Assembly (NCBI GenBank): GCA_911728435.2
Contig: OU452200.1
Span: 39,385,715 to 39,449,714 of the forward strand
Direction: 5' to 3'
Length of the DNA: 64,000 nucleotides
DNA from: Apoderus coryli
Lineage: Eukaryota > Arthropoda > Insecta > Coleoptera > Attelabidae
Shown here: in pieces, positions 843-57,300 of the stretch
How positions within the stretch are numbered: position 1 is the stretch's first letter
Layout of the letters: each line of letters begins with the position of its first letter
Translations under genes and position numbers: made by a program
Notes under the pieces: model-generated
What the model was told of the DNA's origin: nothing
Seen by the model: only the letters and a program-made list of their open reading frames with translations
The model's database searches: none

Positions 843-1146
843 TATATAGAGTGAGTATAAAGTGCGGAAACCCCTGTATATTTCCGAAAATAATTGTTAT
901 TTTGAAAAAAGGTTAAAAGAAAAGTTATTTGGTATAATTTTTGGCACAACCAACCTTCAATTTTTATAGCATTAACAGCTTTGTTGATATGGCAACCAAC
1001 TTTGTTTTTTTTTAAACGACATGGTATATTTTTCTTTTCATTTTTAGGTAGACCATTTATTTCTGGATACGACAACAATTTTTATAGGGTTTCATTAGAA
1101 AATAATTGAGAAAAGGGGTTTTCACACTTTATACTCACCCTGTATA
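843..1146. mobile_element. MITE with ~31-bp TIRs ending in ACAGGGTG-like words
   Basis: The left end (GAGTGAGTATAAAGTGCGG at 849-867, then AAACCCC) and the reverse complement of the right end (GGGTGAGTATAAAGTGTG, then AAAACCCC) match over about 30 bp, so this is a ~300-bp inverted-repeat element. The right end is the CACCCTGTATA word that recurs through the window. A long open frame on the minus strand here is AT-rich and matches nothing known. A flanking duplication was not settled. Confidence 0.65.
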
Positions 1147-1560
1147 GTATCTAAGTTGACTACATAAGGATATATTCGGCTTTGTAATAAAAAGTAGCCT
1201 TCCTAGTAACATCAAATTTGGCAGATGTGAAATACAAAATTCTAAATTATTCCTTTCCTTTAACGAATCTACTGCCTGTTTTTCACCACAATTTCGAATT
1301 AGTCACATCCTGCAGCAGCCAACTGTTATACCATCTTTAGAGGAAAAAGTAGTCTTATCATGCGCGAGACGTCAGTCCCAAATTTTTATTTACGACACGA
1401 CCACCTGTAATATCCGCAGGTGAGTGTGGGACTCGAACTTGGGAAGGTGTCCCTGCTAATACCCACTAAAACCTCTCCGGGGAAAGGAGCTATCTAATCG
1501 CCGATTTCTGGAACGATGACTTCTATTCCTCCAGGAGCTCCTGAAGGTCTATCTATCGAC
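1147..1560. other. No gene recognised; possible LINE 3' UTR on the minus strand
   Basis: The sequence lies downstream, on the minus strand, of a jockey-like reverse transcriptase end. From about 1310 it is richer in GC than the flanks, which would suit that LINE's 3' end, but no tail or target duplication was identified. Confidence 0.35.
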
Positions 1561-1730
1561 AGATTTCTCGTCTCGTCTGCTGCTATATGTGTCTGCTAGT
1601 AGTTTGGAACTTCTGACGTTTTTTCCGCATGGATTGTGTCTGTTTGCACGCCGCTAGAATTGACGTTGTCTTCACCCTATAGAGCCTAGGGTCATAGTTG
1701 GCATCTTGGCCTCTTGAACCTTGCTTGTTC

Positions 1731-1950
1731 CTAGGGGTCGTAGTCCACTGCTGCTCGCAGAAGTGGATTCTGATGTTGATCTGCCTTTTCAAAGACCGAT
1801 GTTGCTTGCTGTGCGAGATATTCCGTCAAGGAGTTGATATCTAAATCCCTACGAAGTCGGTCGTTCCTCATGAACCAGCATAGTGCGTCTAGTGCTATTC
1901 TGATACTAAGACCGTTCCACTTATACACCACTATATTCGTCAAAAAATTC
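1731..1950 (-). pseudogene. Jockey-clade LINE reverse transcriptase, C-terminal end
   Basis: The minus strand reads WFMRNDRLRRDL, then a segment ending QHQNPLLRAAVDYDP and a stop. This follows the C-terminal pattern of jockey-group non-LTR retrotransposon proteins: R-N-x-x-L-x-R-D-L, about 25 residues, then H-x-N-P-L-L. Only about 70 residues remain and nothing of the RT core is present. The frame next to it (1583-1792) carries further coding-like text, suggesting a frameshift. It is a dead fragment; the clade is inferred from this short pattern. Confidence 0.55.
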
Positions 1951-2199
1951 TTCCTACAACAGACTCGCGCACAACTCTCCTTAGAAAGTTTTTTAAAGTG
2001 ACTTCTCAGTTCTCTTCCGTCGTTAAAATGAAATATATTAAGTGGTGTGGTAAGAAGTCTGCATTAAGTCACCAAATAATCAACAAAGTTTACATATTTT
2101 GTCTTACTTACCAATTGATGGAAACTGATTCAACATTGTTTCTGGTGCTTTGGGCAACTGTGGACCCTACCCCGTTCCCAGTCAATTAATTCTACTTGC

Positions 2200-2560
2200 A
2201 GAAATATAGAATTTTAATTTCAGTTACGAAAATACTTAACGATTAGGTATTTCAACTAAAACGTAATTCGTTTTCAATAAATATTAAATTATAATTACAT
2301 TTTTCGAATATTTATTATCCTGTTTTTATATACGTATGTACGTACTTGAAAATAAATTATTACTGGCAGTAATTTTGTTTTGACATATTCTGCTGAAATA
2401 AATTAAATTATTTTTTGCATACAAAATTATTTGTAATAAAATAAAGCTAAATACTATTCAATTTTAATTAATTTAAAATGTAATTATTTTTTCTGAAGTT
2501 TAGGGAGTTTATTAAAGCTAGGTCTCTATTAAGTTGCACTCAAAAACTTTATAATTTTAC
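2200..2560. other. AT-rich stretch without a gene
   Basis: Low-complexity AT-rich DNA; nothing recognised on either strand. Confidence 0.6.
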
Positions 2561-2689
2561 TTCAGGAGTTGGGTTGAATATACCGTTGCCTGACACTCTT
2601 TGTTCCAACAGCCCTGTGCTATTCAATAGCTTATTTGTTTATCCTAAAACGAAGTCACTATATTTGGAGTCAATCAAAAAACAGAAATT

Positions 2690-2890
2690 GGTTTTCGATT
2701 GCATCTACCGCTTCTTCAGTCGACGAAAATTGTTGGCCACGCAATTTATTCTTGAAGTTTGGCAACAACAAAAAAATCATTCGATGCCAATCTAGGACTT
2801 TACGGCGGTTGACCCATCAATTAGACTTTTGAAGTGTTCAAATGGTCCAATGTTTGATGAGATGTGTGTTGTCCTGATGAAGCATGATCA
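2690..2890 (-). pseudogene. Mariner-like transposase remnant
   Basis: In broken frames the minus strand gives PRLASNDFF, aligning with the S-P-D-L-x-x-N-D-F-F block around the third catalytic aspartate of mariner transposases. TEEAVDAIEN-like text follows, as in the better preserved copies at 21530-21910 and 44109-45303. A degraded equivalent of the second catalytic block (HQDN) lies just upstream at about 2870. Several frameshifts; non-functional. Confidence 0.5.
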
Positions 2891-2899
2891 GTCGACTGA

Positions 2900-3640
2900 T
2901 TGTTTATTTTATTTATTTCACCAAAGACTTCGTGCAAACAAATAGGCCACAGTTTTTCTAAATAATCAGACGCCCATTTGTTTTACACGCCGTTCCCTAT
3001 TTAAATTCTGGGAGTGGCACAGCATCGAATGGGATATTTCACACAAGAATTCCAATTTTACCAAAATTCGAAACGGGTTAGGCTAAGCGCATACTGGAGT
3101 TGCGCGCAAAGCAGAGATGAGAGCAGCGAGCAACGCGACGGAAACACACCAATGTTTTCCTGTTTGAACACGCATACTGTCGGCGATGTAAGCAAGCGTG
3201 TATAGTCGAGCAAACGACGTGATAAAAAATTTGTGTTTTCTCTGATCTCATCTTTGTGCATTTAAAATGAATATTGAGGAATTAATTTGTTGCATTTTTG
3301 TAAAAAAATGCTCTGTGGGGCCAAAAACTGCAAGTCGTTCTGTTTTCTGTAGGATCGAAAGGATTTTGGTTAGAATTTATCAATTTTTCCAATAACTAAT
3401 GTTCGATTCCCTCCAAAATATAATCGGAAGTGGTAATTCTTCTCTTCGTATATGACTGTCAACTATTATTAGTCTTTCGAATGTGGCAGGTTTTAGTAGC
3501 CTTCTTTGTTCATTAAAAACATACCAAGACTAAGACTCTTCAAATATTAATTAAATCATTGAATTACGATGTAAAAGCGACTACTGAACTCCTCAATTTG
3601 TGCACCAAAACTCATTCATCGTCGCTTGACTTTATTCAAG
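2900..3640. other. No gene recognised
   Basis: Between 3010 and 3260 the GC content rises and both strands have open frames of about 65 codons, but neither resembles a known protein or has convincing splice sites. The rest is AT-rich. Confidence 0.5.
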
Positions 3641-4014
3641 ACCTAAGTAACTATTCTTAATGACCAACATCACGCATGTCGTTTGGCATGCATATAGCCC
3701 TTCATATTGTCATTGTGCCTAAATTTCATAACCCATCAGGCAACGAACAGGTTTCAATTTTAATGCTTTTCTTTGGTATAGGACGCTATCATGTAAGCCC
3801 TAAGAAACTATTCTAAATGACGAATTCCCCGCATGTCGTTTGGCATGCAGATGGCCCTTCCTAATATCATTGTCTTGCTAAATTTGACAACTTATCAGGC
3901 AACGAAAAGGTTTTAATTTTAATGCTTTTCTTTGGTATAGAACGATATCATTTAAGCCCTAAGAAATTATTCTTTATGACGAATGCCTCGCATGTCGTTT
4001 GGCATGCATATAGC
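3641..4014 (+). repeat. ~158-bp tandem satellite, about 2.4 units
   Basis: Units begin at about 3644, 3801 and 3960 with TAAGNAAnTATTCT. Each contains GCATGTCGTTTGGCATGC, an imperfect inverted repeat. Units are diverged by about 10-15% by eye. Another 1.2 units lie at about 22565-22755, so this is a dispersed short satellite array and not a single local duplication. Confidence 0.85.
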
Positions 4015-4290
4015 CCTCATTTGCTCACTGCTCCATTATGCGTTTAGCATTAATCGGCACCCTCTTAAATAAATCCATGGTTCAGATGCGCAGTTCAGGA
4101 TAACACCATACATACCTTTAAAAACGTCAAACTGTGAGAAGTGTATATTATCAATTCTTTGTTCATTATTCAGTAAAACTGGTAGGAAATAGGAGCATTG
4201 AATCTGACAGCATGTTATCATTTGTAACATAAAAGCTTAGGCTCAAAAATAACTATCTTTAATCTACCATGACTTCATTCAATCTGGCAG

Positions 4291-4643
4291 GTGTCTGCTG
4301 GCCTTGACCTACTATGACTCCGCCGCCATGAGGCCGGAATCATACGACATGGCCCTATTCGGTATGGTGTGGTTGCTGCGCGTACGCAGCGAAATGAAAC
4401 GGTGTGCGAAATGCCGACGGCAAGCGGAATCACACGAAGCCGAATTGTTGAGACGAAGAACGCATGGAGAGGGACTGCATTCTGTAACTGCTGCCGCTAG
4501 TACATCAACAGTACTGACATTGGATACTGTGGGGGGTAGTGGGGGTGGTGTGATGCCCAGTGAGGCACCAGTGGGGGAAGTGTTAGTGAGGGGTGTGCCG
4601 ACGACTTTTTGTGAAGTGCACGGATTTAATCCGGTGAAAAAAG
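4291..4643 (+). CDS. Internal exon of an unrecognised host gene
   Basis: A 353-nt open stretch, clearly GC-richer than its surroundings, starts after a good acceptor (AATCTGGCAG at 4281-4290) and ends at a strong donor (AAG then GTAAGC, from 4644). The frame starts with one base of a split codon and leaves one base at the donor, so both introns interrupt codons. The product begins CLLALTYYDSAAMRPESYD, then a short hydrophobic run (MALFGMVWLL), a basic Cys-containing segment (RSEMKRCAKCRRQAE), a low-complexity Ala/Ser/Thr/Gly linker, and FCEVHGFNPVKKG. The hydrophobic run followed by basic residues suggests the cytosolic edge of a membrane segment. I do not recognise the family, and no neighbouring exon is visible here. 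Confidence 0.7.
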
Positions 4644-5378
4644 GTAAGCGATCTAGTACCACTAGAGCAAAAATTTTATTTAGTGAAATCCAATCCACTA
4701 ATGAAATTTTCACTCATTTATTAATTATTAGACTCACGATAAGAAATAATTTTGTCATAATAATTGTGGGAGTATTTTGAATGACTCTTCCACATATGAC
4801 TTTAAGCAAATCGCACGATCTTGGTGGCCAATTCACGTCACCATGTGAGTGGTAAACATAGAAATGTCATCTAATTTCAATGTTTGTCTTCATAACATAA
4901 AGGTCAATATTTACCTTTTTAATGACAGAAGGAGTGCATGTAAACAAACGTCAGTGGCGTAGTATAATTCTTTTGAAATCGTGGTTGCAGTTTACAATAA
5001 TAAATACATACCTACGCAGGAACTGTAGCATTTTTTTCAAATATAATTTAATAAATAATAGATGTCTGGGATTAAAAGGAAACACTTTCTATATTATGAA
5101 AATATTTATTATTAAAAATGCAAAGGTATATAATTATGAATTTGATTTTACATTTACTAATTATAAGAAACCACATTTCAAATGAATCGTTTTCTTTCCT
5201 ATACCTGAGAAACTGAATCTGTTTCCACTAAGTTTAGACAAGATAAAAGTTATTATGAAACCAACAAACAAAACTATTTGGATGGTTCTCAAATAAAACT
5301 TCGACGGTTCTCAAATTATTGCAATTGATTAGATTCTTTAATGATTACGTATGGCAACAATACAATTATTGATATAGG

Positions 5379-5478
5379 GTTTCAGAGGAACTTGCTGTTA
5401 ATGTGTCACTTTTTGATATGTCCATGATCTCCACATTATGCTGGGTCAGGCTGAAAAAAAAAATAGCACAAATTTTAA
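5379..5478 (+). other. Exon-like segment VSEELAV, first of a pair
   Basis: After an AG (ATTGATATAG) an open frame reads VSEELAVNVSLFDM and continues to a stop near 5490. The segment at 5555-5632 encodes a related peptide, and the nucleotide differences within VSEELAV fall at third codon positions. The copy at about 40556 in the second dispersed repeat has an early stop. It may be an exon or a captured gene fragment; no parent gene recognised. Confidence 0.4.
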
Positions 5479-5554
5479 TTTATTGTTGCGATGACCAGTA
5501 TGTATGTGATTAGAATAGGTTTGCATATATTTTTCTTCCTCAACTTCGGACGCA

Positions 5555-5632
5555 GAGTTTCTGAAGAACTGGCTGTAACTGTCATACTTTTTGCCACCTC
5601 AGCTGTAGACGCTAATCCCAGGATAAAATGAG
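5555..5632 (+). other. Exon-like segment VSEELAV, second of a pair
   Basis: A pyrimidine-rich tract and GGACGCAG acceptor precede a frame reading VSEELAVTVILFATSAVDA and ending at TGA (5630-5632). Compared with the segment at 5379-5478, four of the seven VSEELAV codons differ only by silent changes, which is what selection on a protein leaves. If real this would be a terminal exon. The gene is unknown. Confidence 0.4.
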
Positions 5633-5696
5633 GCTCACAAATTACAACAACAGGTTAAATAACGCCTTGTTATTTATTGTTAAATATTTTTAAAAA

Positions 5697-5735
5697 AACA
5701 ACGTTTCGGCAACGTACATCTGTTGCCTTCTTCAG
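5697..5735 (-). ncRNA. Hammerhead-ribozyme-like core, stem I missing
   Basis: On the minus strand CTGAAGA (fits CUGANGA) is followed by a 6-bp stem II (GGCAAC/GTTGCC), then GAAA and CGTTGTT, which allows a tiny stem III and a GUU site. The sequences outside do not pair as stem I. Probably a decayed relative of the ribozymes elsewhere in the window. Confidence 0.45.
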
Positions 5736-6443
5736 GTAATTTACATACAAAAATCGTCTAGTGGACAACTAGTGTTTTCTAAATATTCTAATGTCTCTTT
5801 GGGCGAAATGTTGTCAGCAAACATAAGAACTTTTAGTGATCGTTTCAAATCTTAAACCAAGCGAAGTACACCACACCCTTCTAACGGCTTGATCATAGGG
5901 AAACCTACAAGAATTATTTTACTATTATTAACTAGTATAAACTGTGAGAGCCCTTATTCACTCTAATCTCCAACGAAAACGAGTAAAAGTTCGTACGTAT
6001 CTCCTCCGAAGAAAAACAATTGTAAAATATGTCATGTGTTTTTACATACAGTTAAATATTGAGAATGTGCGGTAGGCTACTTTTGGTGAGGCTCCTTTGT
6101 ATAGTAGATTTAAACAACTCATGTTAACTGCTATCGCTGCAAAATCGCAAAATCTACGCCATTGTAGTTACTTGTGATACGTAACTTTACTCGGAAAATC
6201 ACTCGACATGCAAACTAAGCACTTTTTTCTCCCCATTATTTAAAGGAAAACCAGTTTTACACACTACAAATGCAGTAAAGTGTAAAATTCACTTAATTCG
6301 GTTTATAAAACTGTACGTAGCACTACTCGCACCCCACATGTCAACGTGAAGTGTAAATAATAAACAAATCCCTCCGCGGGGTTGTCGCACATTTATAGCC
6401 GTAGAACTGTATTTTTGTGAATCATATTATATTTGATTGATTT

Positions 6444-6930: not shown

Positions 6931-7160
6931 ACAGGGTGAGTCACCCTAGATGCGATGGTCTACATTGGCAAACCCATTCAGATTTTCAAAATTCTTTCAA
7001 CGTCTTACATTCTAAAAAAAAAACTAGTTTTACGTTTTGAGTTTTTCAAGATCTATTTACATCTTGAAAAACTCAAAACGTAAAACTAGTTTTTTTTTTA
7101 GAATGTAAGACGTTGAAAGAATTTTGAAAATCTGAATAGGTTTGCCACTATTTAATTCTT
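6931..7160. repeat. Repeat with an 86-bp-arm near-perfect hairpin
   Basis: It starts with ATACAGGGTGAGTCACC, shared with 8799. Arms 6967-7052 and 7061-7146 are reverse complements over 86 bp with one difference, including matching runs of ten A and ten T, around an 8-nt loop (CTATTTAC). Near-identity means a recent event or gene conversion. A transcript would form one long duplex. Confidence 0.9.
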
Positions 7161-9604: not shown

Positions 9605-9816
9605 ATTCACTATCGCTATCACTGTTTTTTTGTCTAAGATGCTAATAAACATAACCTATAATAGAAGAAATGGTCTTGTTTAACGAAACAAGACTTAATT
9701 CCGAGAGTTTGTCTGTATATACCCACACAGAGACAAACTCTCGGATTAAGTCTTGTTTGTGTTGGTAATTTTGTATTATGGGATCATTGCCATTACACGC
9801 AGTCGAGATAGTGAAT
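9605..9816. mobile_element. Small foldback element with a 28-bp central hairpin
   Basis: Outer ends ATTCACTATC and GATAGTGAAT are inverted. At the centre, 9686-9714 and 9731-9758 pair over 28 bp with one bulged T around a 16-nt loop (GTATATACCCACACAG). The size and shape recall a pre-miRNA, but a MITE is the simpler reading. Confidence 0.55.
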
Positions 9817-9859
9817 TGTTGATCACTAGGCATAATACCAAAATAAATTAGATGTCGCC

Positions 9860-10556
9860 AAACACATACTCTTACATAACCTATAATATTTTATGCAGTA
9901 TGCAGTTGACCAAGTAGAGATATCCCTATTAATTTTAGCTGTACCTGTATAAGACTTTATTTTCATTACAGTAAACTGCCACATGAGTTTGAAGCTGATT
10001 TTTAATCAACGCGACGAATACGTGCTGTATCAGAGGATTAACAAAATGTTGTGTAACTAATTATTTTTGACACATTTCAACTATTATTGTAGTGCCGTTT
10101 ATGGACCTTGTTTGTTCGGCACTGGCAACAAATTCAAAACTGTTGTGTGCGTCGGTGGAATATGAAAATGAAATTGTGTGGTTCACGATGAAAGAACGCA
10201 GACTCTTTCAATCGAATCAATCAAATTCATTTGCATATAGCGAAAATTATACAATTTCATTGCAAATGAGCTTAACAATAATAGCAAACAGTAACCAATA
10301 TATACTCATACCGATTTGTATTGAATGATCTTAATTAAATTCCTTGTCAATTTTCACCATCAATCTTATAATAATAATAATAAAGGATTTTTGTTGCATA
10401 TTTAACAAACAAGTAGATTATTTTTTTTATATATACGCAATTGGGCGATATTCAGTACGGTGCTATGCACATTTATGCATATAACCGTCTGTTCAGTTAA
10501 CCCATTGTTAATAAATACAAAAGAAAAATCACACTCACTAAACATTACAGTCAAAT
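9860..10556. other. No gene recognised
   Basis: AT-rich sequence. The open frame at 10092-10328 has no recognisable domain or splice context. Confidence 0.5.
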
Positions 10557-10609
10557 AAAATAAATACTAAGAATTGCTTGTTACATAAAGCAACAAGACT
10601 TTAAGTTAT

Positions 10610-10713
10610 GTTGGAAATTTGTTTCACACTACCATGCTTTCACCAGACGGCCGTTTCGTCGATCCACGACTCATCAGTGGTGATCGACAGGCAGTGTGCC
10701 CCAAATTTCCAAC
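10610..10713 (-). ncRNA. Type I hammerhead ribozyme, copy A
   Basis: On the minus strand: CTGATGA (10677-10671), a 4-bp stem II with loop TGGAT, GAAA (10657-10654), a tiny self-complementary stem III (CGGCCG), then GTC (10648-10646). Stem I is long and two-part: an inner TCACCA/TGGTGA helix next to the core, an internal loop, an outer 9-bp helix (CACACTGCC/GGTAGTGTG with one G-U pair), then GTTGGAAATTTG/CAAATTTCCAAC. All core nucleotides are canonical. Cleavage is predicted after the C of GTC. A tiny stem III is known from the hammerheads of Penelope-like elements and retrozymes, where dimers can form. Confidence 0.88.
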
Positions 10714-10988
10714 ATTTACAAAGAGCTTATACTAGCACGAGAATTGATTGAGAGAGAGATGGTTTTGGCGACATCTAGCGTGAACAGGCAATATGCCGGG
10801 TGAAACACCTGCTAGGGTATTCGGGCGCATCTAGTGTTCGCAAATAGGATATAATGGAGTTGTTACTTCTTGTCCGGCCATCGTTTGTAAACTGTGTTTC
10901 ACCCGGTATATTACCTGTTCACGCTAGATGTCACCAAAACCATATCTCTCTCAATCAGTTCTCGTGCTAGTATAAGCTCTTTGTAAAT

Positions 10989-11092
10989 GTTGGAAATTTG
11001 GGTCACACTGCCTGCCGATCACCACTGATGAGTCGTGGATCAACGAAACGGCCGTCTGGTGAAAGCATGGTAGTGTGAAACAAATTTCCAAC
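10989..11092 (+). ncRNA. Type I hammerhead ribozyme, copy B
   Basis: Same fold as copy A on the opposite strand: CTGATGA at 11025-11031, GAAA at 11045-11048, stem III CGGCCG, GTC at 11054-11056, inner stem I TCACCA/TGGTGA, outer CACACTGCC/GGTAGTGTG, and the GTTGGAAATTTG helix. Stem II has one C-A mismatch (GTCG with CAAC), which may weaken it. Confidence 0.82.
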
Positions 11093-11603
11093 ATAACTTA
11101 AAGTCTTGTTGCTTTATATGTAACAAGCAATTCTTAAATAAAGCCTCCCTGCTAGGGGATTCGGGCGCATCTAGTGTTGGCAATAGGATATAATGGAGTT
11201 GTTACTTCTTGTCCGGCCATCGTTTGTAAACTGTGTTTCACCCGGTATATTGCCTGTTCACGCTAGATGTCGCCAAAACCATCTCTCTCTCAAAATAAAT
11301 ACTTTTAGCATACAATCTATATAAGATATCTTCAGAATTATACTTATTAATTAAGCTTGATATGTCATTCCACCTCATTATGAAAAAAAAAAAGAAATCA
11401 AGATCGTAAGATTCTATTAAATTTTCTTTTAAACACACATTTTGAAAAAGTATTCCTTAAATCATTGGTCCAAGAATTCACGCATTTAGAGACGGTATAA
11501 GAATAAGACCTCTTGAATATTTCTGTTTTGTGAATAGGTATAGGTATTTAGTGAATTAGGAAAACGAATGTTGATATTATGGATGTCTGTTCGAAATTTT
11601 ATT

Positions 11604-50370: not shown

Positions 50371-50870
50371 TTATTGATTTTTTTTAGTTTTATTATAAAA
50401 TTTATTTTGCCCCTTTTTCTACTATTTACGAACCCCTATGTAAACAAAATTGTTATGCTGCATGTAGTATCTTATATCAAAGCTATATATAAGTAGCCAA
50501 TTTTTCTGTTATATTTGGAAAAACATTTTTTTTTCGTTTTTGACCCTTTTTCGAACGCCTGTGTGAACCAGTTCATTTATGTAACATTTTTTAGCTTATA
50601 TTCTATCACCGCTACGAAAAATTATTCCGTATTCCGAATAAGTTTAGGAAGTATATATGTTTTTATTTTGACCCCTTGAACACTATTTACGAACGCCTAT
50701 GAAAACGAGTTATTTATAACACATTTTTTAGGTTATATTCTATCAAAGGTCTAAATAACTAGTCAATATTTCTGCTATGTTTAAGAAATTCGTTTTTTCT
50801 TACCTTTTTACTCCATTTTACACTTTCTTCGAATGTCAATGTGGTTTAATTGTTTAAGTTAAATATTTTA

Positions 50871-51038
50871 AGAATTGCTTGTTACATAAAGCAACAAGAC
50901 TTTAAGTTATGTTGGAAATTTGTTTCACACTATCATGCTTTCACCAGACGGCCGTTTCGTCGATCCACGACTCATCAGTGGTGATCGGCAGGCAGTGTGA
51001 CCCAAATTTCCAACATTTACAAAGATCTTATACTAGCA
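50871..51038 (-). mobile_element. Solo 168-bp hammerhead repeat unit
   Basis: From AGAATTGCTTGTTACATAAA to TACTAGCA it matches 10569-10737 at about 97%. Only one arm is present, without the loop or inner-arm sequence, so this is a monomer whose extent can be compared with the foldback element. Confidence 0.85.
50911..51014 (-). ncRNA. Type I hammerhead ribozyme, copy C
   Basis: Same fold as copy A with all core bases canonical: CTGATGA (50978-50972), stem II GTCG/CGAC, GAAA (50958-50955), CGGCCG, GTC (50949-50947). Differences from copy A lie in the stem I loops and pairs (CTGCCGATC instead of CTGTCGATC; ATGATAG instead of ATGGTAG), leaving the fold intact. Confidence 0.88.
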
Positions 51039-54975: not shown

Positions 54976-56676
54976 CTAATCACATAAAAATTTTCTTTTA
55001 TACGATTTTCTAGAATGGAGTTTACTAGGGCAGTCTCGCTGAAGGCTCCAGCAGTAGTCCGCCATCATGTGGCTATCCCATCGTCCTTGATAACGATCTT
55101 CCATAGTTTTAATATCCTGGTGGAATCTTTCCCCCTGTTCTTCACTACAATCACCTAAGTTTTCTGGAAAACGATCTAGGTGGCTGTGGAGGTAGTGAAC
55201 TTTTATACTCATGTTACAGCCGAGAATATTAAAATTTGAAAGCATAGTTTCCACTAATTCTACGTAATTGTCTGCTTTATGATTGCCAAGAAAATTTTGT
55301 ACTACTTGAACAAATGAACTCCAAGCGTTAGATTCAGTCTCGTTCATTGATGTGGTGAATTGTGGATCTTTAACAAGTTGCCTTATTTGAGGACCATCAA
55401 ATATACCAGCTTTTAGTTTTTCCGTGCTAATGCCAGGAAATTTACGTGACAAATACCCAAAACAATTTCCATCTCGATTTAAGGCCTTCACAAATTGCTT
55501 CATTAGGCCTAGCTTGATATGCAAGGGCGGAAGTAAGATTTTTTCTCTTGAAACCAAAGGTTCGTTGATCACGTTTTGTATTCCTTGAATCATGACATCT
55601 CTTGAAGGCCAATTTTTGTTAACCCAGTGCTCATTTTTAGCTCTGCTGTCCCAAAGGCACAAAAAACAAGGATATTTTGTATAACCACTCTGCTGTCCAA
55701 GGAGGAAGTTAATCATTTTTAAATCAACACAAATTGACCACTGATGTTCTTCGTATTTAATTTTTCTCAAAACTAATGCTATTGTTTCATATTCTTCCTT
55801 CATGGTAGTAGAATGACCAATAGGAATTGAGCCATATTTGTTACCGTTATGTAAAAGAACACATTTTAAACTACGTTTTGAACTGTCAATAAAAAGGCGC
55901 CAATCATCTAGAGTGTATTCAGGCAAACCCATTTTTTCTAAGAGCCCTTTTATATTGTTACAGAATACCAAGTCATTTTCCTGAGTGAAAAAAGGCAGCA
56001 GATCCTTATCTCTTTTACGATAAAATGTAATATTAGTACCTCGACAAAGTAGATTTTTTTCTTTTAATCTGGATGCAAGTAATTCAGCGGATTCCTTTGA
56101 GAGATTCAGGTCTCTTATAAGATCGTTTAGTTCTTCTTGATTGAAACACTGCGGAGTTGCTAAATCTGCTTCAAAATCGCTGTCGTTTTCTGATTGAATT
56201 CTTTTAACTTCGTCAGACGTTGATGTTTCTGTATCATCTTCTGTCAGTTTGGGTAGACTGCTGAATGATGGAACGGGTATTTCTTCCGAATGCACTACAG
56301 GCCTTCTTGCAGAATCTAGATCAGGATATGTCCATTTGTGTCTATTGTTTCTATTTATGCCTTTAATATTAACGAGACAAAAATAGCAGTCGTCATGATG
56401 GTTCCGCGGTTCTCTCCAAACCATTGGTACACCAAACTTTAGGCACTTCCTCTTTCCAGTTGTCCACTGTCGCAAATGTTCAACACATGTTTTACATATG
56501 AAATGTGGGGCCCAAGATTTATCTTGATCTCCTAAATGAACGCCAAAATAGGCAAGATAAGCTCTTTTCACAAAGTCAGAAATCCTTTTTCTGCTCTCTT
56601 TCAAAGTGTATTCACCACACACATAACAAAAAACATCGGGATGATTTGCACAGGTACGTCTGCTTGTGGATGCCAT
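54976..56676 (-). CDS. Intact 566-aa putative transposase, multi-copy arthropod family
   Basis: Single open frame from ATG 56676 with an AATAAA signal 34 bp past the stop. Residues 9-64 have C17-x2-C20 and C61-x2-C64, and C97-x2-C100 follows: an N-terminal metal-binding region, likely for DNA. Residues 130-175 are acidic and disordered. The C-terminal 350 residues look like an RNase H-type nuclease: LFIDSSKRSLK (D264), ICVDLKMINFLLGQQSG (D318), CFLCLWDSR (C337, C340), LPPLHIKLGLMKQF (H386), and SEEQGERFHQDI (E513/E516). These are candidate catalytic and zinc residues, not shown ones. I know similar sequences as multi-copy unnamed arthropod proteins. No stop or frameshift although its host LINE is decayed: recent activity or selection. 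Confidence 0.8.
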   Translation of the reverse strand: MASTSRRTCANHPDVFCYVCGEYTLKESRKRISDFVKRAYLAYFGVHLGDQDKSWAPHFICKTCVEHLRQWTTGKRKCLKFGVPMVWREPRNHHDDCYFCLVNIKGINRNNRHKWTYPDLDSARRPVVHSEEIPVPSFSSLPKLTEDDTETSTSDEVKRIQSENDSDFEADLATPQCFNQEELNDLIRDLNLSKESAELLASRLKEKNLLCRGTNITFYRKRDKDLLPFFTQENDLVFCNNIKGLLEKMGLPEYTLDDWRLFIDSSKRSLKCVLLHNGNKYGSIPIGHSTTMKEEYETIALVLRKIKYEEHQWSICVDLKMINFLLGQQSGYTKYPCFLCLWDSRAKNEHWVNKNWPSRDVMIQGIQNVINEPLVSREKILLPPLHIKLGLMKQFVKALNRDGNCFGYLSRKFPGISTEKLKAGIFDGPQIRQLVKDPQFTTSMNETESNAWSSFVQVVQNFLGNHKADNYVELVETMLSNFNILGCNMSIKVHYLHSHLDRFPENLGDCSEEQGERFHQDIKTMEDRYQGRWDSHMMADYCWSLQRDCPSKLHSRKSYKRKFLCD

Positions 56677-57300
56677 TGTTTCAGTTTAGTGTCTTGATAC
56701 TACAAAACGACCAAAATTTACACAAAATGATAGCACAACTTTACTTGGGAAAACTCAGTAATATACTAAATCAAGTACAGCCAAGCAGGTATAGAAGGAT
56801 CGGGTCATAGGCAATTACAGGTATAAAAATAAGTAAGAGCATTGTATTGAGTAGTTCCTAGTATAGGAACATTGGGTCAGGGACAATTCCAGGTATCCAT
56901 TTGGCTAATTAGATTCTGGGAAATTCCTATTTTGACGATTAAGTACATATTTATCTCTTTATTTGTTGTCCTTTATCAGAAAAAAATATATCATTTAACC
57001 TGTAACGTGTATCTCAAAAACTAGAGCTGATAGAAAAAATCTGGTGGCATTTTTGGAATCAGCACATTAAAAACATCTAAAATCAGATGTTAGATTTCTG
57101 GCACCAAATTTTTTTTTTCATTTTGTTGGCCTGTGTTATTAATAGCCTGAAAGGCTACTGACGTTTGCTCGACAACATATTTCTTATTTTTATTCTGAAT
57201 GAGTTTAAACTGGATTGTACATGTTGAGAAATACAAGAGTTATACAATTTTACCGCGTGATAAGTAAAACATTTCTTAAACATGGTTGTTCTATTATATA

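Follow-up and report, generated by a model that had tools for sequence, protein, structure and literature searches.

Layout of the insertion and related features

The window, i.e., the whole stretch of 64,000 nucleotides that was analysed, carries at 10569–11291 an insertion with two inverted type I hammerhead ribozymes and a 12-bp target site duplication (TSD). The duplication had been noted in the original prediction and is present as AAAATAAATACT; its two copies occupy 10557–10568 and 11292–11303, so that the element coordinates predicted earlier are exact. The features of this element, together with two related insertions in the window, are listed below (families A and B, the unit and its end sites P1 and P2 are defined in later sections; RT, reverse transcription or reverse transcriptase).

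9649..9888, no strand: related family-B insertion (9664–9873) with its TSDs; E-values of 4e-19 and 6e-17 to unit B
10557..10568, no strand: left 12-bp target site duplication, AAAATAAATACT
10569..10808, minus strand: first cDNA arm, RNA-sense on the minus strand, about 0.71 unit
10640..10683, minus strand: type I hammerhead, RF00163, 33.8 bits
10808..10809, no strand: head-to-head inner junction of the two arms, with a possible 1-nt overlap
10809..11291, plus strand: second cDNA arm, about 1.43 units, with its 3′ (RT start) end at 11291, i.e., at P2
11019..11062, plus strand: type I hammerhead, RF00163, 31.6 bits
11292..11303, no strand: right copy of the target site duplication, AAAATAAATACT
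50867..51038, minus strand: solo 5′-truncated family A copy of 172 nt with a P1 end; hammerhead at 50941–50984

The 3′ (RT start) end of the first arm lies at 10569, which is P1, and its 5′ end at 10808; the AA at 11292–11293 may derive either from the RNA or from the target. The inverted arms 10585–10808 and 10894–11117 are 96% complementary. A direct repeat inside the element (10809–10954 vs. 11149–11293) has a period of about 340, indicating a unit of about 340 nt with one hammerhead, not of about 170 nt. The circular RNA of about 170 nt that had been predicted is thus not borne out; with a unit of about 333–340 nt, the expected circle measures about 337 nt. No frame of at least 120 aa overlaps the element and no LTR layout is found; the RT plus GIY-YIG endonuclease frame that goes with membership among the Penelope-like elements is likewise absent from it.

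The family-B insertion at 9664–9873 has the same organization, i.e., a minus arm (9667–9716) ending at P1, a plus arm (9731–9876) ending at P2 and a 15-bp TSD, ACATAACCTATAATA; it lacks a hammerhead because of the position of its inner junction. The interval 9649–9888 also gives a sub-threshold match to mir-282. For the solo copy at 50867–51038 there is no convincing TSD, the best match being one of 9 nt that lies off the boundary. Elsewhere in the window, 15566–15592 matches the P2-side motif (27 nt, 89%), and a strong hairpin at 6993–7120, with several microRNA-model matches below gathering scores, is probably another small inverted-repeat element. An open 569-aa frame at 54976–56685 has 2,149 relatives at 1e-3, the closest named one being from the firefly Pyrocoelia pectoralis (81%), and matches no Pfam family. 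Judged by this firefly relative and by the mobile genes of the window, the genome is insect-like.

Hammerhead ribozymes

The Rfam covariance check suggested with the original prediction was run over the window, where RF00163 (Hammerhead_1) matches both copies over the full model, with whole-window E-values of 1.2e-4 (33.8 bits, minus strand) and 6.7e-4 (31.6 bits, plus strand). Both scores lie slightly under the 34-bit gathering score, and a search at gathering returned 0 matches. The core elements CUGAUGA, GAAA and GUC are kept in both copies, in agreement with the earlier description of two inverted, intact-looking type I hammerheads; at 11042, stem II of the plus copy contains a C-A mismatch. 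Cleavage is predicted between 10646 and 10645 in the minus copy and after 11056 in the plus copy, and both are putative self-cleaving ribozymes. The two-part stem I described earlier is also supported. Single energy predictions for the unit circles of family A (locus L010) and family B (locus L059) both contain an extended stem I despite their differing outer sequence, which favours stem I pairing.

Conservation was examined across 106 hammerhead parts of full length, taken from a set of 41 loci, in which copies from the same locus are non-independent. In the 14 core columns the minor base has a mean frequency of 0.003, vs. 0.024 in 129 outer columns; a core diverging as fast as its surroundings, which the original prediction had named as a refutation, is not what is seen. 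Inner stem I is more variable (0.036). The core is intact in 103 of the 106 copies, and core plus stem II are exact in 85. Exact hammerhead patterns gave 0 matches in the collections viral_contigs and genome_contigs.

Genomic copies and families

A 32-base core pattern with one base free occurs at 2,020 places in the 428-Mb genome of 129 contigs (1,008 on one strand vs. 1,012 on the other) and at 0 places for the reversed control, which excludes chance. When the element was queried as 10569–11292 against the genome, with the best 40 of 2,433 candidates scored, at least 296 matches were obtained, falling by grouping into about 40 loci. Among the first 100 places of the core pattern, read by eye, all 14 pairs of opposite-strand hammerhead neighbours within 1 kb run minus-then-plus.

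At least two families are present, both with units of about 333–340 nt carrying one hammerhead each. Units of family A, to which the window element belongs, measure 336–345 nt and those of family B 333 nt (measured in L059), arrays reach up to 10 units, and the GC contents of the two units are 42% and 46%. Across 20 loci taken in genome order, A and B share the hammerhead and a motif upstream of P2 and are otherwise different. Arms measure between a few nt and 10 units, and the inner junction changes from locus to locus; the foldback, first taken for a fixed element, is instead what two cDNAs joined head-to-head leave behind at insertion, and it varies accordingly.

The window element represents a single insertion of a family A retrozyme of the animal non-LTR type, with a unit of about 337–340 nt. 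It has an intact type I core, tandem units in the range of about 150–450 bp, neither LTR nor coding sequence, and a TSD longer than 4 bp. The excerpted account of metazoan non-LTR retrozymes (Cervera and de la Peña 2020, PMC7229834) likewise gives type I hammerheads, tandem units of 170–400 nt, no protein, low GC and TSDs longer than 4 bp. The earlier proposal of a small, non-autonomous family of retroelements was right; the family had also been called possibly not yet named, whereas the class, the retrozymes, already has a name. Plant LTR retrozymes (PMC4918200), as described in PMC7761336, are also non-coding and share the hammerhead and the circular RNA (the circle being presumed here), but differ in having type III hammerheads, LTRs, PBS/PPT and 4-bp TSDs.

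Fixed outer ends P1 and P2

Each locus was mapped onto the unit, with position 1 being the first base 3′ of the cleavage site. On this scale P1 lies about 80 nt and P2 about 237 nt past the cleavage site, at a spacing of about 156 nt. The 60 mapped loci comprise 41 of family A (39 found by similarity, the element and the solo copy) and, in genome order, 8 of A and 11 of B; L051, an apparent duplicate of L050, was excluded from the end tally. By machine call, 88 of 98 outward RNA-3′ ends in these loci fall at P1 or P2, the two windows covering together 31 of the 340 (A) or 333 (B) unit positions and having been set after seeing the data. Of the 31 loci with both ends defined, 30 pair P1 with P2, and tail-to-tail loci number 0 of 60. 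The outer ends at P1 and P2 have dissimilar sequences and do not form inverted repeats, i.e., they do not have the terminal inverted repeats of a foldback element.

The paired form, i.e., head-to-head arms with offset ends and a TSD, accounts for 30 of the 60 loci by machine call, and it denotes a Penelope-like layout, not membership. The 41-locus A set holds 23 P1/P2 loci, 1 P2/P2 locus, 5 with one P end plus another outward end, 11 with one P end only and 1 with none. In genome order, the 8 A loci are 7 P1-only and 1 with P2 and another end (P1/P2 none by machine call), most of the P1-only loci lacking a clear TSD by eye, and the 11 B loci are 7 P1/P2, 2 P1-only and 2 undefined. The paired form is not universal; it makes up 7 of 19 loci by machine call in the genome-order sample, whereas the similarity-chosen set favours long, young copies. 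In four loci called one-ended (L022, L027, L033 and L062), a few nt of the other end adjoin the TSD by eye, which in L062 is a short inverted P2 remnant.

The 5′ ends of the segments are spread over the unit. Six of 67 fall at unit positions 1–8 vs. 1.6 expected, in a window chosen after looking, which gives a weak hint of run-off at cut RNA.

Target sites

An exact TSD of 12–14 nt is found at 22 of the 41 loci vs. 7 of 1,640 mismatched flank pairs. Ends, TSDs and overlaps were then read in 31 hand-picked loci, i.e., two-ended loci with a TSD of at least 8 nt plus the short-remnant loci, a set that does not include the P1/P2 loci L012, L016, L018 and L047. Leaving out L041 and L046 (misoriented by the script) and L052 (TSD of 8 nt only) gives 28 oriented loci. 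The TSD measures 12 or 13 nt in 23 of these, with an A+T content of 88%. ATT or AAT, read by eye, occurs in 27 of the 28 TSDs without a strict TTTT/AA, and targeting of TTTT/AA as the only rule was rejected.

Beyond the element end, the mean overlap of target and RNA in the 28 loci is 2.9 nt at P1, vs. 0.8 nt with the TSD letters shuffled, and 2.0 nt at P2, vs. 0.5 nt (observed value reached in 0 of 2,000 shuffles each). This above-chance overlap at both ends fits priming by short pairing at both.

Arm identity and the RNA template

In the hammerhead parts of the 41-locus set, where copies of a locus are again non-independent, the mean difference between the two opposite arms of a locus is 0.55% (median 0, 52 pairs) and that between same-arm copies 0.51% (103 pairs), vs. 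2.6% between loci (5,410 pairs). Copies are closer inside than outside the locus in 16 of 17 two-armed loci, L019 being the exception. The two hammerhead arms of the window element are 1.8% apart vs. 2.5% to other loci, which is little less. Two loci, L010 and L045, contain six complete units each, three per strand, with at most 1 mismatch per pair; other arrays among 12 are less uniform, their units differing at as many as 6 of 337 nt (L032) or being of unequal length (L027, L030). The near-identity of units on both strands indicates that in young loci both cDNAs came from one RNA sequence. Unlike the uniform L010 and L045, the ten-unit array L018 (G000:C5:3507600-3514200) is made of mixed variants, for which several templates or later exchange are possible readings.

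Long arms run past several hammerhead sites, up to 10.4 units in L018, which fits a circular template; a homogeneous multimeric RNA explains identical units equally well. Taken with the fixed mixed ends, the near-identical arms suggest that both nicked strands probably served as primers for RT of a single RNA, circular or multimeric, with two different starts.

Head-to-head Penelope-like elements in the genome

Among the best 150 of 1,260 candidates for the GIY-YIG endonuclease, all 18 pairs of neighbours within 5 kb run minus-then-plus by eye. Four Penelope-like pairs (L068–L071), fetched because they were head-to-head, are head-to-head palindromes, and a 12-nt repeat stands at the ends of each, with no control computed for it. 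A tail of about 36 nt occurs at one end only in L068, L070 and L071, and L069 has a left arm with a different end point. The 728-aa protein encoded by L070 combines RVT_1 and GIY-YIG; at 973–5854 of this locus (G000:C1:11605000-11611900), two open 728-aa Penelope frames stand head-to-head in a 4.8-kb palindrome, 99.6% identical. A search of the Penelope ORF against solved structures found no sequence relative at 1e-3.

The 3′ part of L070 contains a minimal hammerhead motif whose cut would fall, by eye, about 49 nt upstream of one end and about 85 nt upstream of the other, distances comparable with the ~80 nt of retrozyme P1. RF00163 gave no match in L068–L071 at E up to 1; the minimal CTGAGGA/GAAA/GTC motif there was found by pattern and eye. 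Retrozyme units share with the four loci short matches only, of 14–19 nt and with E of 0.02 or worse.

Head-to-head inverted terminal copies, an optional one-end tail, two internal RT starts, both-strand extension (proposed for the retrozyme), AT-rich targets, short TSDs and a hammerhead near the start are common to the retrozyme insertions and to Penelope-like elements, as described for Poseidon of Anolis (PMC11167929) and rotifer Penelope (PMC3846280). Three differences are to be noted. First, Penelope-like elements encode RT and GIY-YIG endonuclease, whereas the retrozyme does not. Second, the Penelope tail is 30–40 nt as published and about 36 nt in the fetched family, vs. the retrozyme P1–P2 spacing of about 156 nt. 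Third, rotifer Penelope has TSDs of 8–10 bp vs. 12–13 in the retrozymes here, according to the excerpt of PMC3846280, which also reports inverted pseudo-LTRs and a tail. With these pseudo-LTRs as precedent, the inverted ribozymes called unusual in the original prediction are indeed inverted, but an arrangement of this kind is not without parallel.

A purified Penelope protein is reported to cut both strands and to extend each of them, with a preference for AT-rich DNA; its RT begins within the RNA, the tail sitting between two internal start sites (PMC11167929). The same study found no difference between the strands in start site and no requirement for hammerhead cleavage in vitro; these observations lend no support to a strict P1/P2 pairing and count as counter-evidence. 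In the excerpted text of PMC7229834, LINEs or Penelope are proposed as movers of animal retrozymes, with Penelope a strong candidate. The layout, 12-nt duplications and offset ends of the resident Penelope-like elements, together with the published two-strand extension, lend structural support to this retrozyme–Penelope link.

Proposed mechanism and alternatives

The unit, the fixed and mostly mixed ends, the TSDs, the variable junctions, the near-identical arms and the Penelope-like layout are seen directly in the sequence. On this basis we think it likely that the retrozyme is copied from both nicked target strands by a Penelope-type enzyme, with starts at P1 and P2. Tandem transcripts would cut themselves at the hammerhead, and the ~337-nt monomers would be closed, presumably into circles rather than serving as a homogeneous multimer. 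A Penelope-type RT/endonuclease, the putative mover, would load the circle and nick both strands of an AT-rich target about 12–13 nt apart. Each nicked strand would prime RT on the same RNA, one at P1 and the other at P2, aided by pairing over a few nt, and each cDNA would extend for part of a turn to several turns before the cDNA ends are joined head-to-head. The expected outcome would be inverted hammerheads, fixed outer ends, a variable middle and a 12–13-nt TSD. To a more specific form, a routine two-strand event in which a Penelope RT dimer works on one ~337-nt circle, its protomers starting at P1 and P2 and producing head-to-head concatemers, we give even chances.

Twin priming leaves TSDs and inverted 5′ parts as well, so that both are also expected if the retrozyme is moved by LINE (L1-type) machinery and its inversion stems from ordinary twin priming, with the second strand happening to prime within the RNA. 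The window site reads TTTT/AT at the P2 side with a 2-nt A overlap, and the window has RT frames, matching RVT_1 only in Pfam, whose LINE type is an assignment by judgement; both observations suit LINE machinery. However, in ordinary twin priming only the 3′ end is fixed and the inner start is scattered, whereas the retrozyme has two fixed starts, which are mixed in 30 of 31 loci, and the tight TSD length (12–13 nt in 23 of 28) equals the 12 nt at the four Penelope-like loci. LINE machinery is thus an improbable mover, and ordinary one-off twin priming was rejected, since both ends proved fixed.

Self-priming has been proposed for rotifer Penelope elements in the excerpt of PMC3846280, and RT self-priming or strand switching on its own cDNA, not second-strand priming, could make the inverted arm. 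Either route would yield a head-to-head layout with near-identical arms; self-priming leaves unexplained, however, the second fixed outer end at a different RNA site and the above-chance target/RNA overlap at both ends, and we consider it very unlikely. A transposase-driven DNA foldback element that merely carries the hammerheads along would account for inverted arms with a TSD and for fixed outer ends, but its probability is minimal given that neither outer end is an inverted repeat of the other, that arms can be as short as a few nt or as long as 10 units with inner junctions differing by locus, and that units of one locus share private sequence.

Significance

Retrozymes and the Penelope layout are each already known separately. 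In the excerpted text of PMC7229834, neither paired head-to-head insertions with two fixed ends nor a demonstrated mobilising enzyme is described, Penelope being a candidate only, and a search of the open-access literature, covering titles and the starts of abstracts, found no report of paired, mixed-ended retrozyme insertions. PMC7229834 proposes either LINEs or Penelope as the mover of animal retrozymes, and the paired mixed ends bear on this question as a structural fingerprint common to the resident Penelope-like elements and to the behaviour of Penelope protein in vitro. The analysis also names two short RNA sites, P1 and P2, as testable and makes within-locus arm identity a natural assay for circular templates. 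If the routine two-strand event is real, P1 and P2 would together act as a bipartite loading signal through which a circle without coding capacity becomes a substrate for Penelope, and rolling-circle reverse transcription would be directly recorded in the genomic copies.
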